This document shows positions 21,068 to 53,179 of a DNA stretch of 64,000 bases, one piece after another (position 1 is the stretch's first letter; each line of letters starts with the position of its first letter). The position numbers were made by a program, and so were the translations under genes. The DNA is from Aotearoamyces nothofagi (taxonomy: Eukaryota > Ascomycota > Leotiomycetes > Leotiales > Tympanidaceae): positions 496,001-560,000 of the forward strand of contig JADDTR010000010.1 in assembly GCA_015345905.1 (NCBI GenBank), written 5' to 3'. A model generated the notes under the pieces. It was not told where the DNA came from. It worked only from the letters and a program-made list of their open reading frames with translations, and did not search any database.

Positions 21068-22944
21068 ATGGCGGTCATGGACAGTTTCAAGAAGAGCCAT
21101 CTGGTCCGCGAGATGACATGGCCACTCCTGGTTGTTTGTCTTTTTGCAAGTGTAAGACAAATAACCTCCTGTTGTCAAAATAGATGGATTTTAAACACTT
21201 GACTAACTGCTATGCAGCTTGGTGGTGCTGGCTTTGGAGTTGGTGAGAGCTTCTCATAGCGGTATTGTTATTCGAAGACTTACAGATTTAGACAACGGTG
21301 TCTGGTCTGGGCTCTTGGGATTCACCCAGTTCAACCAAGACTTCGGGGTCTACAATCCCACTACTGGAAAAATAACCATCCCTGCTTCATGGCAATCTGT
21401 TGGCACTGGCACCCCACAAGCTGGTATCGCTCTTGGTTGCATAATCGCGACTCCTATCGCCACGCGGTTTGGACGGAAAATATGTTTTCTAATCCTCGCA
21501 GCTATCTCCATAGTCGGCGTTATTCTTCAAGCAACGGCTCAAGACTACTGGCAACTGGTTGTGGGCCGGATTGTCAATTCCGTTTCCATGGGCATCATCT
21601 GCAAGTAACTCTCCCCAGTTCCTTGCATCGACGACAGTAATTCTAATATATTCATGTAGCATTGTGCCTAATTATGCAAGTGAATGCTCCCCTCCAAAGA
21701 TCCGCGGTGCATTGATCAACTTCTACCAATTCTGGCTTCTCTTTGGATATCTTATGATTACCATTGCCAGCTGGAAAATGTCGACTGTTGAGAGCCAGTG
21801 GCAATATCGTACTATCATCCTCATCCAGCTCGTTGTTCCAGTCATCTTTATACTAGCCTCGGTCTTTTGTCCTGATTCCCCACGTTGGCTTTTGTTGAAG
21901 GGCAGGCGCGAAGAGGCGCTTAATACTATGCTCTTTCTCCGAAGAGGCACTCCTACGGAACTCGTTGAGGAGGAGGTTCGTCTCATTCAGGAGAATATTG
22001 ATGAGCAAAGGAGAAATCATTATGCGCATAGCTTTTTAGATTGTTTCAAGTAAGTAACTTCCTCACATTATATAACAGCTACTAATACGTTTTGTAACAG
22101 AGGTACAAACCGCAGACGAACTTTTATTTCCATGGGTGTCCAGGGCGGCCAACAAATCCAAGGCAACTCCTTTATTTCAAATTACTCTATCCTTTTCCTG
22201 GAGTCTGTTGGGGTCACGGACACATATCTAAACAATATCTACCTCACCTTGGTCAACGCTGTGTCTGCAGGATCTGCCTTCTATCTCGCAGACAAACTCG
22301 GCCGACGCTGGTTCATGGCTTTCGGAGCTTTAATCGAGGCCACTGCAATGTATATTGTTGCCGGCCTTACAGGAGGCTCTGGCACTCCCTCAGTTGCTGC
22401 AGAGAAAGGTGCTCTTGCCGCACTATTCATCTGGCAAGCATTTCAAGCTTGCTCATGGGCATCCTGGTAAGTTTGCTATCCACAGCTGACTTTAACTTGT
22501 CTCTTATCCATCCAATATAGTGTCTGGATCGTTTCAGCCGAAGTCGCAACATCTCAGCTCCGCGAACGCACTCTTACAATAGCAACATTTACCTCATTTG
22601 CTGTCGGATTGGTTGTGACCTACGTCAGCCCCTATATCCAAGACGCAGGATACGGCAATCTTCAAGGAAAGATCGGCTTCATCTGGGGAACAGGCTCGCT
22701 CATTGCGATGCTGTTTGTCATATTCTATGTTCCAGAGCTCAATGGACGCAGTATCGAAGAGCTTGATGAGATGTTTGATAAGAAGGTCAGTGTGTGGCAG
22801 TTTGGTAAATACGAGACGACGGGTATTGGTAGGAGAATTAGAGAGATTGAGGATCTGGATGCCGTGGAGATTATTCGGGGAGAGGAGGTAGACGATCCTA
22901 AAAGCACGGTTGAGGTCAGTGTTAAAGGCGGAGAGAAAGTCTAA
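21068..22944 (+). CDS. MFS sugar transporter (SP family)
   Basis: A plasma-membrane hexose or other sugar/polyol porter of 535 aa with about 12 spans. Exons are 21068-21151, 21218-21242, 21286-21604, 21660-22049, 22101-22466 and 22521-22944. The second exon is only 25 nt. Sugar-porter marks are present: ATRFGRKICFLILAA (loop 2-3), QLVVGRIVNSVSMGIICN, YASECSPPKIRG, CPDSPRWLLLKGRREEAL (residues about 212-229), and near the end FYVPELNGRSIEELDEMF (about 462-479). The length is normal for the family. It follows a Zn2Cys6 regulator on the same strand and carries an unusual palindrome in its promoter, so it is likely induced by that regulator's signal. The transported sugar cannot be told from sequence. 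Confidence 0.9.
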
Positions 22945-40987: not shown

Positions 40988-42281
40988 AACGATCTGTGGG
41001 ATTCGTTGGATGCGAGTGTTACTGGGGCGGAGACTGATAATAATCAGTGGCAACAGACTGGAATAGGATTGGGGAAATGGACATGGATACAAGCTTTGGT
41101 GATATGTTATGGCTGGCGTTTAGGTTCTTTTGCTGAGTTTGTATCGGATTTCTCATAACGGATTGATGTGTATGGCGGTACTCTGATACAAAAGTTCCCA
41201 ATAAACATTGTTTGCAGCATTTATAAAAGCAATAAAGCTTATTAAACGTACAACATTTTGTCTATGCCATGTGATGATGTGGAAGAAAAATCCATCTCTC
41301 TGATCATCTTCCGACGATGTAACCTGTTCCGAGATCTGGAGTTTGGGAACACTGAAATAAGTTTCCTCCATAGAAGCCAGTGTAAGTTCGGTTTCATTTA
41401 TATTCTGGGACGGAGAATGTGGTCTTACTTGAGGAACGAGATGCTTACGGCTAGGTTGGTGATGCTTTGCAAATTACAGTCTCGGATTTGATCGAACCCA
41501 AGTTGTAGTCTTTGAAGATACAAACAACTAGGTAGGTAAAGAAGAACGCTGAAGATTGTGGAGATGATGATGGCTATTTGTTACCTGTGAGTAGGTCTGC
41601 AACACGCATGCCGGGAAGGGCCTTCTGCTGTATATGTTGTGACTGCGGGAGCTGATCTTGATCAATACTATAGTCATTTCAGATGAAGCATAGGAAGGGA
41701 GGCTGGGCGAATCTAGAGACTACCGGGAGGTTGCAAGCTTTCCGGAGTTGTCTGTTATACCTTGTAATAGTCTACGATCGAAAGAAGCCTCGTTTACTTA
41801 TGCAACGGCTTCGTGCTTGCTGTCTATGTGGTTTCCATGTGCAACATCTTATGCAGTATGACTCGGAGTAGCGTCCTGTGGTACCTACAAAGCCCAGTTC
41901 CATGAACAAATACTCGGGATTAACATCAGTGGGTAACGTCGAGGCTAAGGAGAAGGACGAAATATAAAGCAGGACGTTGTCGTTCGTATCTACCTGTAAG
42001 CTTCAGTATGATCTCTGAATCTATACGTAAAACCTCGCACAGCGATTGCAATTTTATTCAGCGCGCAGTAGCACCCACTAGCTTGACCATTATCAAATAG
42101 AGATTGAGATCTGCTCAGGATGTCCGGGACGAGATTTGCAGTATCAAAATTGGATGGGCGACAATGATGTTCTTGCCAGATGGGGTTTGCGCGACGTGTT
42201 GGCTACTAAATCTCGTTTAAAATAAAATCACGTCATGGTACTGATATAAGTTCAAATTAGCAATTCATCATAAAACAACAA
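40988..42281. other. intergenic
   Basis: 1.3 kb between the CCCH gene and tRNA-Phe. Short open frames only, none with a motif or an intron-compatible extension. No repeats seen. Confidence 0.5.
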
Positions 42282-42424
42282 GCGGCTTTAGCTCACGTTA
42301 GTCACCAACAGCCTCTGTTTCTCTCTTAACTTCCACTAACACCTAATAGTTGGGAGAGCGCCAGACTGAAGTCAACTTCAGACAGTCCATCTGGAGGCAC
42401 TGTGTTCGATCCACAGAAGCCGCA
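42282..42424 (+). tRNA. tRNA-Phe(GAA) with anticodon intron and a 53-nt D-arm insert
   Basis: All cloverleaf parts are present. Acceptor stem GCGGCTT pairs with AAGCCGC plus discriminator A, the D-stem halves are GCTC and GAGC, the anticodon stem CCAGA/TCTGG encloses CTGAAGA, and the T-arm is CTGTG-TTCGATC-CACAG. A 17-nt intron (42372-42388) follows the base 3' of the GAA anticodon. It contains CTTCA, able to pair with the anticodon, as is normal for nuclear tRNA introns. The gene is unusual because the D-loop is split: 53 extra nt lie between A14 and the GTTGGG of the loop (42296-42348, or 42297-42349 if read as GT...AG). This insert splits the A box. The variable loop reads AGGCA where AGGTC is usual. 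The gene could be a working tRNA with an extra processing step or a recently interrupted copy. Confidence 0.85.
42297..42349 (+). other. GT-AG insert in the D-loop of tRNA-Phe
   Basis: The insert starts GTTAGT, has a pyrimidine-rich middle, then CACTAAC 13 nt before a terminal TAG. These are the donor, polypyrimidine, branch and acceptor marks of a short fungal spliceosomal intron. Its 53-nt length is within the range of introns in neighbouring genes. Exact GT-AG removal restores the canonical tRNA length but leaves C at position 15. Removing the window one base to the left restores the canonical G15. Confidence 0.7.
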
Positions 42425-43004
42425 TTTATCTGCGAGTCAGAGTCCACTCTGATTAGAACACAATTTTTTTTGGGCATTTTGGTCAGTGTCACTTTTCTTT
42501 GTTTGGATTATTTCCGGTTGTTCGCTTATTTTGTCGGTTGGGAGGGGCAATTGGCATCCATCTATATACAGTTTCCCCCCGGAATCATCACTTAGCGTCT
42601 CGCCGCTGATTTAAACGAGGAGGTCACTAAAAGTTTTTGTGTACGGAGTTGCATTGCCTTTATGCAGTCCTATCATTAAGCTCCTGGGCATTAATCACTA
42701 ATCATACTGGGCTCTTCAGCGATGCTAATCAGGAATTTGAAAGCAGCGATGAGACATTAAATATGTGAATGGTACTGTACAAATGGCGACTGAAGTTCGC
42801 GACAACTTTTGAGATACTTCAATATCCATGCCAATTTACAGATAAACCTGAACATCCGTATCAGTTCAATATCTATGTCATGACTCAATGAGGCGCTGTT
42901 GCAGCCGTTGTTAGAGATGCTCTGTGTCGTCCCGTGATCGGAGACTGCTGATTAGTAAAGTCCGTGCTTCGAGTTACTTTAACAGCTGCCCGAGGCTTTC
43001 CACA
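42425..43004. other. intergenic
   Basis: Trailer of tRNA-Phe and upstream region of the next Zn2Cys6 gene. Nothing beyond the T-run seen. Confidence 0.5.
42464..42471 (+). terminator. possible Pol III terminator of tRNA-Phe
   Basis: Eight consecutive T on the coding strand about 40 nt after the tRNA 3' end. There is no T4 run in between, so the primary trailer would be unusually long. Confidence 0.55.
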
Positions 43005-51689: not shown

Positions 51690-53179
51690 CTAGTCATCGT
51701 AATCTTCTCGGGTCTTACTCAAAACTGGAGACAATATAGAATCCTCCAAACTACTCCTTCTGCCCCAATTTCTCGGCTGCCTCTTCAAAAAAGCACCCAC
51801 AGCACCGAGGTAGCCTTCATGTCTAAGAAAATAAGCCTTCTTTTCTCCTTTACTCCAGAACTTTATGGCATAGCTGAGCGTGTTCATTGTTTGACGATGT
51901 CCACGAATAAAACTGCCGCCGAAGTAGATGTGTGCTAGATTGTGTTTTTCGGACTGGAGATAGGCAATTTGGCCAATGTTGTTGGATACGGCGTAGAGTA
52001 GAGACCGTGATATGTCGTCTGCATGAAAGGTTGTGGGTTGTGGATTTGTTGAAACGCCAGGTGAGGGGGGCTGTGAAGACGTCGGAGGTGCTTGGGTAAA
52101 TTCGTAGTCATCGTTTGTGAGACCACCACTATCTTCAGCTTCTCGTTCAGCTTCTCTCTTCATCCTGAAGACCTTGCCAAAACTGCTTGCAATAGTGGTC
52201 GATTTGAGTCCTATCTTGCCGTAATCTGTGCCATATATATCGCCTACTAGCATGTCAACTTTGGTGTTATCCCCGCGGTCTGCCATACCGAGCATATCGT
52301 CAAATGTGCGCGCGCCAGTAAGAAGAGACAGGAGACCCCAAAGTGTTCCACCACCAAGGGATGTGCCACCGACACGCTCATATGCGCGAGGTCCCGAGAC
52401 CTTGATCATTGACACACCAGAGCCAATATTCACGAGGAGGTAGGGATAGATATCGGCTCTAGTTTCAGCAAAATGCATAGGATCTGTTTCACTATAGGTG
52501 AAGACTTCGCGGGGTATTTCGGTGATGAAGAAATCGAGGCCTGGGATATTGAGAGTTAGCCAGAGTAGCATTCTGCTTTGTCTTGCCTCACCAACCTATT
52601 ATCAAGCACTCCATCTCATCCTCCCGCAGCACATCCACTCCTAAAACGTCTCTGATCTGGTCGTAGAATTTGTATGCGCCGCCGCCAGTCGCCATGACAC
52701 ACAATGCGCCCGGCCTTGAGCCATTGAGTTTCTGCTGCTTGAGTTTCAGTTGCTCCATGAACTCGATGCAGTCCTCTATCCTGTCCGTCTCGAAGTTCAA
52801 AAAGTTGAGTCGTCCGCCAGGTTCTGCAGAACCTGCTTCGCGAGAGAAGTAGACCAATTTTGCTAGAGAGCCACCAATCTACGAGTATCAGTAGGCTCCT
52901 GGAGCAAGAGGACCAAATACATACATCGACAGCTATATGACTCACGACCGCCGTATGGTTTGGCAATCTGATATCCTTCGTATCATGACTACCTCTAGTC
53001 GGACTTACACCATTAGGAGAATTACGATCCCGATCAACAATAAAAGCGCCTTTGACATTAATCTTGACGGATCCCGGGTGGCTGATCGTGTCTTCTATTT
53101 CGGCGGTATTCGTCTGCGTCCTCGGTGGGGTGTCGTCCTGAGCCGAGACTCTGCCGTCCTGCGATGGTTTCGCAGACAT
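51690..53179 (-). CDS. pantothenate kinase (eukaryotic type)
   Basis: Phosphorylates pantothenate, the first and controlling step of coenzyme A synthesis. Exons in coding order 53179-52925, 52878-52596 and 52540-51690 give 462 aa. An N-terminal leader of about 80 aa precedes the ASKHA core: HIAVDIGGSLAKLVYFSRE (phosphate 1, residues about 81-99), LCVMATGGGAYKF, EDEMECLIIGLDFFITEIP (across intron 2), LLVNIGSGVSMIKVSG (phosphate 2), RVGGTSLGGGTLWGLLSLLT and HIYFGGSFIRGH. A disordered insert (TSSQPPSPGVSTNPQPT) sits between the last two blocks. Introns are very short (46 and 55 nt). The match to CAB1/PanK II is clear. Eukaryotic enzymes are feedback-inhibited by CoA or acetyl-CoA. The last gene of the window, a phosphopantetheinyl transferase, uses CoA, but the distance argues against linkage. 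Confidence 0.93.

Follow-up and report, generated by a model that had tools for sequence, protein, structure and literature searches.

What removes an intron-like insert from the D loop of a tRNA, and does a gene so interrupted still make a tRNA? A tRNA-Phe(GAA) gene on contig JADDTR010000010.1 of Aotearoamyces nothofagi raises this question. It lies in the 64,000-nucleotide stretch that we analysed, the window, which covers positions 496,001 to 560,000 of the forward strand. A sequence-only reading of the window had described a 53-nt insert in the D loop beside the usual intron at 37/38, had likened the insert to an mRNA intron, and had suspected that the copy was impaired. Here we follow that observation from the single gene to the tRNA genes found in the whole genome.

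A tRNA-Phe gene with two interruptions

The sequence confirms both interruptions in the window gene, a 53-nt insert in the D loop and a 17-nt intron at 37/38. The layout is GCGGCTTTAGCTCAC, 53 nt, TTGGGAGAGCGCCAGACTGAAG, 17 nt and ATCTGGAGGC...GCCGCA, with the following features:

42245-42260, plus strand: AT-rich upstream element (TATAAG at 42245-42250, AATTAG at 42255-42260), with a putative promoter role
42282-42424, plus strand: tRNA-Phe(GAA) gene, interrupted twice, from sequence and cloverleaf fit
42282-42296, plus strand: exon 1, GCGGCTTTAGCTCAC, tRNA positions 1-15, from sequence, cloverleaf fit and signal table
42297-42349, plus strand: 53-nt GT-AG insert in the D loop, putative mRNA-type intron, from the fit and a similar insert in the other tRNA-Phe copy
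42336-42340, plus strand: CTAAC, branch-site-like, with the presumed branch A at 42339 and 10 nt from there to the insert end
42350-42371, plus strand: exon 2, remaining D arm, 5' anticodon stem and GAA anticodon, from sequence and cloverleaf fit
42372-42388, plus strand: ordinary 17-nt tRNA intron at 37/38, not GT-AG, from script placement and signal table
42389-42424, plus strand: exon 3, T arm and 3' acceptor strand, from sequence and cloverleaf fit
42437-42452, plus strand: trailer hairpin TCAGAGTCCACTCTGA, with one difference in the other tRNA-Phe copy
42464-42471, plus strand: T8 run, Pol III terminator-like

The insert starts with GTTAGT, contains CCACTAAC and ends with TAATAG (GTTAGT...CCACTAACACCTAATAG); it follows tRNA position 15 and so does not lie at the canonical 37/38 location. 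Its removal restores the cloverleaf, and the GT-AG product of the window gene scores 68 (GT-AG products, 59-69). ARAGORN reported no tRNA in the window, nor did Rfam at the gathering threshold, a silence that is expected because the gene is interrupted.

The second tRNA-Phe gene

We searched the 25.5-Mb, 55-contig genome for tRNA-Phe copies with an exon pattern that allowed three mismatches and with a 73-nt DNA query. Two loci were found, the window gene and one at C15:771708-771785 (L014), so that the genome-wide count proposed earlier yielded one other copy, interrupted as well, and no intact copy. An extra match to the exon pattern, with three mismatches, was read as not tRNA. The second gene reads GCTCACT/GTAAGA...CCACTAACACAACAATCAG/TGGGAGAGC (slashes mark junctions) and shares the GT..CACTAAC..AG design, with an insert that differs from that of the window gene. 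In alignment the two inserts are alike mainly at their ends and in TCCACTAACAC, and their sites are one base apart. GT-AG removal gives an identical tRNA from both genes, and their 17-nt introns at 37/38 are identical but for one base.

The trailer hairpin is kept in both copies, with one difference, although their flanks largely differ; trailer hairpins also follow several other tRNA genes, each gene having its own. In tRNA-Phe after GT-AG removal, C15 and A48 (42296 and the region of 42400) replace the usual G15-C48 tertiary pair. An excision shifted by one base (C...A) in the first copy would give the usual G15, while GT-AG leaves C15, with A48. The alteration that had been counted against the window gene is thus present, but it is common to both tRNA-Phe copies and not peculiar to this one.

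Interrupted tRNA genes across the genome

Candidates for a genome census were drawn, with no use of splice signals, from matches to Rfam RF00005 (39 at E<=10; 63 of 791 first-look candidates scored) and from T-loop patterns. Most were placed by a script that allows an insert and gives GT-AG one point when placing it, the others by eye. In this non-exhaustive census, 19 tRNA genes carry one GT-AG insert each, 50-76 nt long, and about 35 carry none. The interrupted set comprises Phe (two genes), Ala(AGC), Ala(TGC), Gly(CCC), His, Arg(TCG), Lys(CTT) (two genes), Leu(AAG), Cys, Thr(TGT), Gln(CTG), Gln(TTG), Asn, Ser(AGA), initiator Met, Ile(TAT) and Val(TAC). Uninterrupted are 30 distinct genes placed by the script, three placed by eye (Pro(CGG), Gly(TCC) and Ser(TGA)) and second identical copies of Arg(ACG) and Asp, one each. 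Among the genes found in this non-exhaustive census, none was read as Trp or Val(AAC).

The interrupted loci are spread over 14 contigs, each with a different insert sequence, and 13 of the 19 genes have an ordinary 37/38 intron in addition. Fourteen inserts lie in or beside the D arm, two at 26/27 and 28/29, and three in the T arm. By hand numbering, the D-side sites are 8/9, 9/10, 10/11, 13/14 (two genes), 15/16, 16/17, 18/19 (three), 19/20 and 24/25 (three), and the remaining ones 26/27, 28/29, 51/52 (two) and 57/58. Ten of the 19 inserts interrupt the A box (8-19) and another borders it; the B box (52-62) is interrupted by one insert and bordered by two. The shortest first exon holds only 8 nt of tRNA. 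The site is kept within one base in the two tRNA-Phe copies and in the two tRNA-Lys copies, with diverged inserts. We sought an introner-like family among the inserts and found none: in 210 pairs of interiors (19 from tRNA genes, two from U6 genes), only the two presumed U6 introns were alike at p<=0.005, and apart from the common signals the tRNA inserts showed no kinship in sequence.

Several loci stood apart. Three (L095, L099 and L100) gave no readable tRNA. Another, L093 (C9:146050-146470, minus strand), is tRNA-like, with good acceptor and T arms, and fits poorly to an ordinary intron or a GT-AG insert; its best excision, not GT-AG, scores 65, its best GT-AG excision 57, equal to the score with no insert, and it was left out of all counts. 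Unusually long 37/38 introns, not GT-AG, occur in L074 (83 nt; C17:265354) and L016 (72 nt; C23:266621-266764). Directly 3' of tRNA-His (L072, C14:65191-65207) lies a second B-box-like hairpin, GATGGTTCAAATCCATC.

Splice signals in the inserts

All 19 inserts have YTRAY 3-25 nt from their end, with 9-16 nt after its A, and the stricter branch-like forms CTRAY and CTAAC occur in 17 and 10 of them. When interiors were shuffled in 2000 trials, with the first six and last three bases kept, the mean and maximum numbers among 19 inserts were 5.1 and 11 for YTRAY, 2.7 and 8 for CTRAY, and 1.1 and 5 for CTAAC. As a negative control, 33 distinct 37/38 introns, mostly shorter, gave GT-AG in none even with sliding, YTRAY in three and CTRAY in none. 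The presence of the same signals at different positions in 19 tRNA genes supports, far more strongly than a single locus could, the earlier suggestion that the window insert is an intron of the mRNA type.

Judged by eye, the 5' splice sites of the inserts resemble those of mRNA introns (GTAAGT/GTATGT), with GTTAGT in the window gene and GTAAGA in the sister tRNA-Phe gene. Against the insert lengths of 50-76 nt stand 46, 51, 54 and 55 nt in four mRNA introns of the window that are backed by Pfam or PDB matches and served as positive controls:

52879-52924, minus strand: pantothenate kinase mRNA intron, 46 nt, GTATGT..CTACTGATACTCGTAG (PF03630, Cab1)
52541-52595, minus strand: second pantothenate kinase mRNA intron, 55 nt, GTTGGT..GGCTAACTCTCAATATCCCAG (PF03630, Cab1)
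22050-22100, plus strand: sugar-transporter mRNA intron, 51 nt, GTAAGT..GCTACTAATACGTTTTGTAACAG (junction within a PF00083 match)
22467-22520, plus strand: second sugar-transporter mRNA intron, 54 nt, GTAAGT..CTTATCCATCCAATATAG (junction within a PF00083 match)

Once its exons are joined, the pantothenate kinase protein matches PF03630 over 1-334 of 334 and yeast Cab1 across the junctions. A frame-based scan of the window returned 32 candidate introns, some overlapping, on the two true strands, versus five on reversed and complemented controls.

A cloverleaf fit blind to splice signals

We also let the tRNA fold alone place the inserts. Every single excision of 30-130 nt was scored, a 37/38 intron of any length from 0 to 60 nt being allowed, and GT, AG and branch site were ignored. 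The best score includes the GT-AG excision in 17 of the 19 genes, and the GT-AG excision is within one point of it in 18, as in Ala(AGC), where it is one point under the best. The exception is His, where GT-AG removal leaves T27 and T43 mismatched and scores 61, versus 65 for excisions that are not GT-AG. Thirteen genes have four or fewer tied best excisions, and GT-AG is among the ties in 11 of these, whereas about 0.12 would be expected from random ends (31 tied excisions/256). The D loop of Phe, Lys, Gly and Thr permits 17-39 tied excisions, and the ends there are therefore not fixed by the fold alone.

Sole copies, compensated pairs and flanking elements

In dedicated searches for further copies, initiator Met was sought with a 34-place pattern allowing three mismatches, and His and Cys with DNA queries. 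For several tRNAs every copy found is interrupted: initiator Met (1/1), His (1/1), Cys (1/1) and Phe (2/2). Uninterrupted copies exist beside interrupted ones for Leu(AAG), Asn and Ala(AGC). In tRNA-Asn, pair 50-64, which spans the insert at 51/52, is C-G in the uninterrupted gene and T-A in the interrupted gene, and pair 6-67 likewise changes from C-G to T-A. Because both pairs are compensated, it is presumably the spliced form of this tRNA that selection sees.

The flanks of the two classes of gene are of the same kind. An AATAAG-like element at -50 to -15 precedes 14 of the 19 interrupted genes and 22 of the 30 uninterrupted ones and occurs in 9% of shuffles, figures that are descriptive, as the motif was written after the sequences had been viewed. 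A run of T5 or longer follows within 80 nt downstream in all 19 interrupted and all 30 uninterrupted genes. In both classes of tRNA gene the AT-rich AATAAGC-like element mostly lies some 22 to 34 nt upstream, and it is likely to be a Pol III upstream promoter element.

Candidate introns in U6 genes

The Rfam U6 model gave two places over its cut-off and two far under it. Two loci have a candidate intron, L101/L103 (C3:1443390-1443800, minus strand) and L102/L104 (C1:1440850-1441240, plus strand), and both genes read ...CTTCGGGCACTTTGGTCAATTTGAAACG/GCAAGTCG...CTAACAATTA..AG/ATACA(G or T)AGAAGATTAGC. Both appear to hold a GC-AG intron of the mRNA type, 47-48 nt long and with CTAAC, at one common site immediately 5' of the ACAGAGA box. 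A counter-argument comes from the Rfam matches, which start inside the presumed intron and cover model positions 1-105 in 107 and 111 nt, so that the model does not need an intron. We nevertheless prefer the intron, because the stretch upstream has what we take to be the U6 5' end, like that of fission yeast. The second copy (L102/L104) has ACATAGA where ACAGAGA is expected.

What the inserts are likely to be

We put at roughly 0.88 the probability that the window insert is a U2-type spliceosomal intron in a nuclear tRNA gene and that this gene belongs to a group of at least 19 in the fungus. The inserts could instead be ectopic tRNA introns that the tRNA splicing endonuclease (Sen/EndA type) excises, a situation described for Cyanidioschyzon merolae and crenarchaea, and their GT-AG look would then be incidental. 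Introns at such positions, sometimes several in a gene, do occur in red algae, nucleomorphs and archaea. Yet this enzyme is not known to need GT-AG ends and a spaced YTRAY, and both are found in 19 of 19 inserts, with GT-AG in 0 of 33 introns at 37/38; the yeast enzyme, moreover, is reported to cut only at 37/38 (PMC4033280). A strict test for the bulge-helix-bulge (BHB) motif at the GT-AG junctions gave 0 of 19 (shuffle expectation 0.06) and one match among the 39 tied excisions of Thr, but it also gave 0 of 29 for ordinary introns and therefore lacks discriminating power. We regard endonuclease cutting as improbable.

The suspicion that the window copy is impaired leads to another possibility, namely that the interrupted genes are unexpressed copies hit by insertions, with intact tRNAs elsewhere. 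Insertions in the D or T arm of eukaryotic tRNA genes are mostly found in one of many synonymous genes and are taken as pseudogenes, according to a published caution (PMC4090602); uninterrupted copies are indeed present for Leu(AAG), Asn and Ala(AGC), and a 55-contig assembly may lack genes. It would still be surprising, as the suspicion does not survive the count of copies found: both tRNA-Phe genes detected give the same tRNA and are interrupted, as are initiator Met, His and Cys in the one copy detected of each. After removal of the inserts the stems pair well, pairs are compensated in Asn, and the upstream element and T runs are of the same kind as in uninterrupted genes. Nothing seen in the sequence spoke for misassembly or chimerism, which is scarcely credible for 19 loci on 14 contigs that have different insert sequences and obey the same rules, with a single alike pair, that of U6, among 210. 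Self-splicing is the most remote prospect. Group I and group II introns do occur in bacterial and organelle tRNA genes, but a ribozyme of this kind does not fit into 50-76 nt, and the window holds no Rfam family at the gathering score. Group I introns in tRNA genes are also tabulated in the literature (PMC4033280). On the evidence against each, we rejected the endonuclease, pseudogene, assembly and ribozyme readings.

Relation to known systems

The spliceosomal reading has partial precedents. The 18S rRNA genes of ascomycetes resemble the genes described here in having introns of the mRNA type in a structured RNA, probably in the same fungal group (PMC11889510). They differ in that rRNA is a Pol I transcript with long exons. 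Fungal U6 snRNA, in S. pombe and others, has a spliceosomal intron in a Pol III transcript (PMC10484740); that is a single gene for the spliceosome's own RNA, whereas here 19 of about 54 tRNA genes found are interrupted, at many positions. Fungal U3 snoRNA is also a structured small RNA with normal splice signals, though not a tRNA, and its introns are mostly near the 5' end; according to the 2017 paper that describes them, no small structured RNA apart from U3 and U6 was known to carry introns frequently (PMC5832005).

Among tRNA introns, those in the D arm, anticodon stem and T arm of C. merolae, nucleomorphs and crenarchaea, at times beside an intron at 37/38, are similar in position. The sequence-only reading had held that known nuclear tRNA introns adjoin the anticodon, a generalization that does not quite hold, since other sites are described for C. 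merolae and algal nucleomorphs (PMC4090602, PMC3978253). The C. merolae tRNA endonuclease is said there to recognise BHB motifs (PMC4090602, PMC3978253); the introns of archaea and C. merolae are described by such motifs and the tRNA endonuclease, and the descriptions consulted mention neither GT-AG ends nor a branch site. Guillardia nucleomorph tRNA introns measure 3-24 nt, their removal being left unexplained, versus 50-76 nt for the inserts. Ordinary nuclear 37/38 introns share precursors with 13 of the 19 inserts and differ in position, signals and presumed enzyme. A search of the open-access literature, at the level of listed titles and abstract openings, found no report of spliceosomal introns in tRNA genes, which is weak evidence that none has been reported for any other tRNA.

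A probable role for two splicing machines in tRNA maturation

Taken together with the copy counts, the sequence evidence makes it quite likely that two splicing machines act in tRNA maturation in this fungus, the spliceosome on introns of the tRNA body and the Sen endonuclease on those at 37/38. Pol III would transcribe the gene from the upstream AT-rich element and the remaining parts of the A and B boxes. The spliceosome would then remove the insert, probably before RNase P trims the end, because an unspliced D or T arm cannot fold; the Sen endonuclease and a ligase would afterwards take out the ordinary 37/38 intron where there is one. Since the only copies found of the start tRNA and of tRNA-Phe, -His and -Cys are split, tRNA production should need the spliceosome, and it is quite likely, on the same footing, that all translation depends on spliceosome action on Pol III transcripts.

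If this is correct, the fungus would allow tests of how a spliceosome can define first exons this short when the transcript comes from Pol III, and would open to study both the function of TFIIIC with split A or B boxes and the route by which introns of the mRNA type enter structured RNA genes. Our results also suggest that in such genomes some tRNA genes, essential ones included, escape tRNA finders built to expect introns at 37/38 alone.
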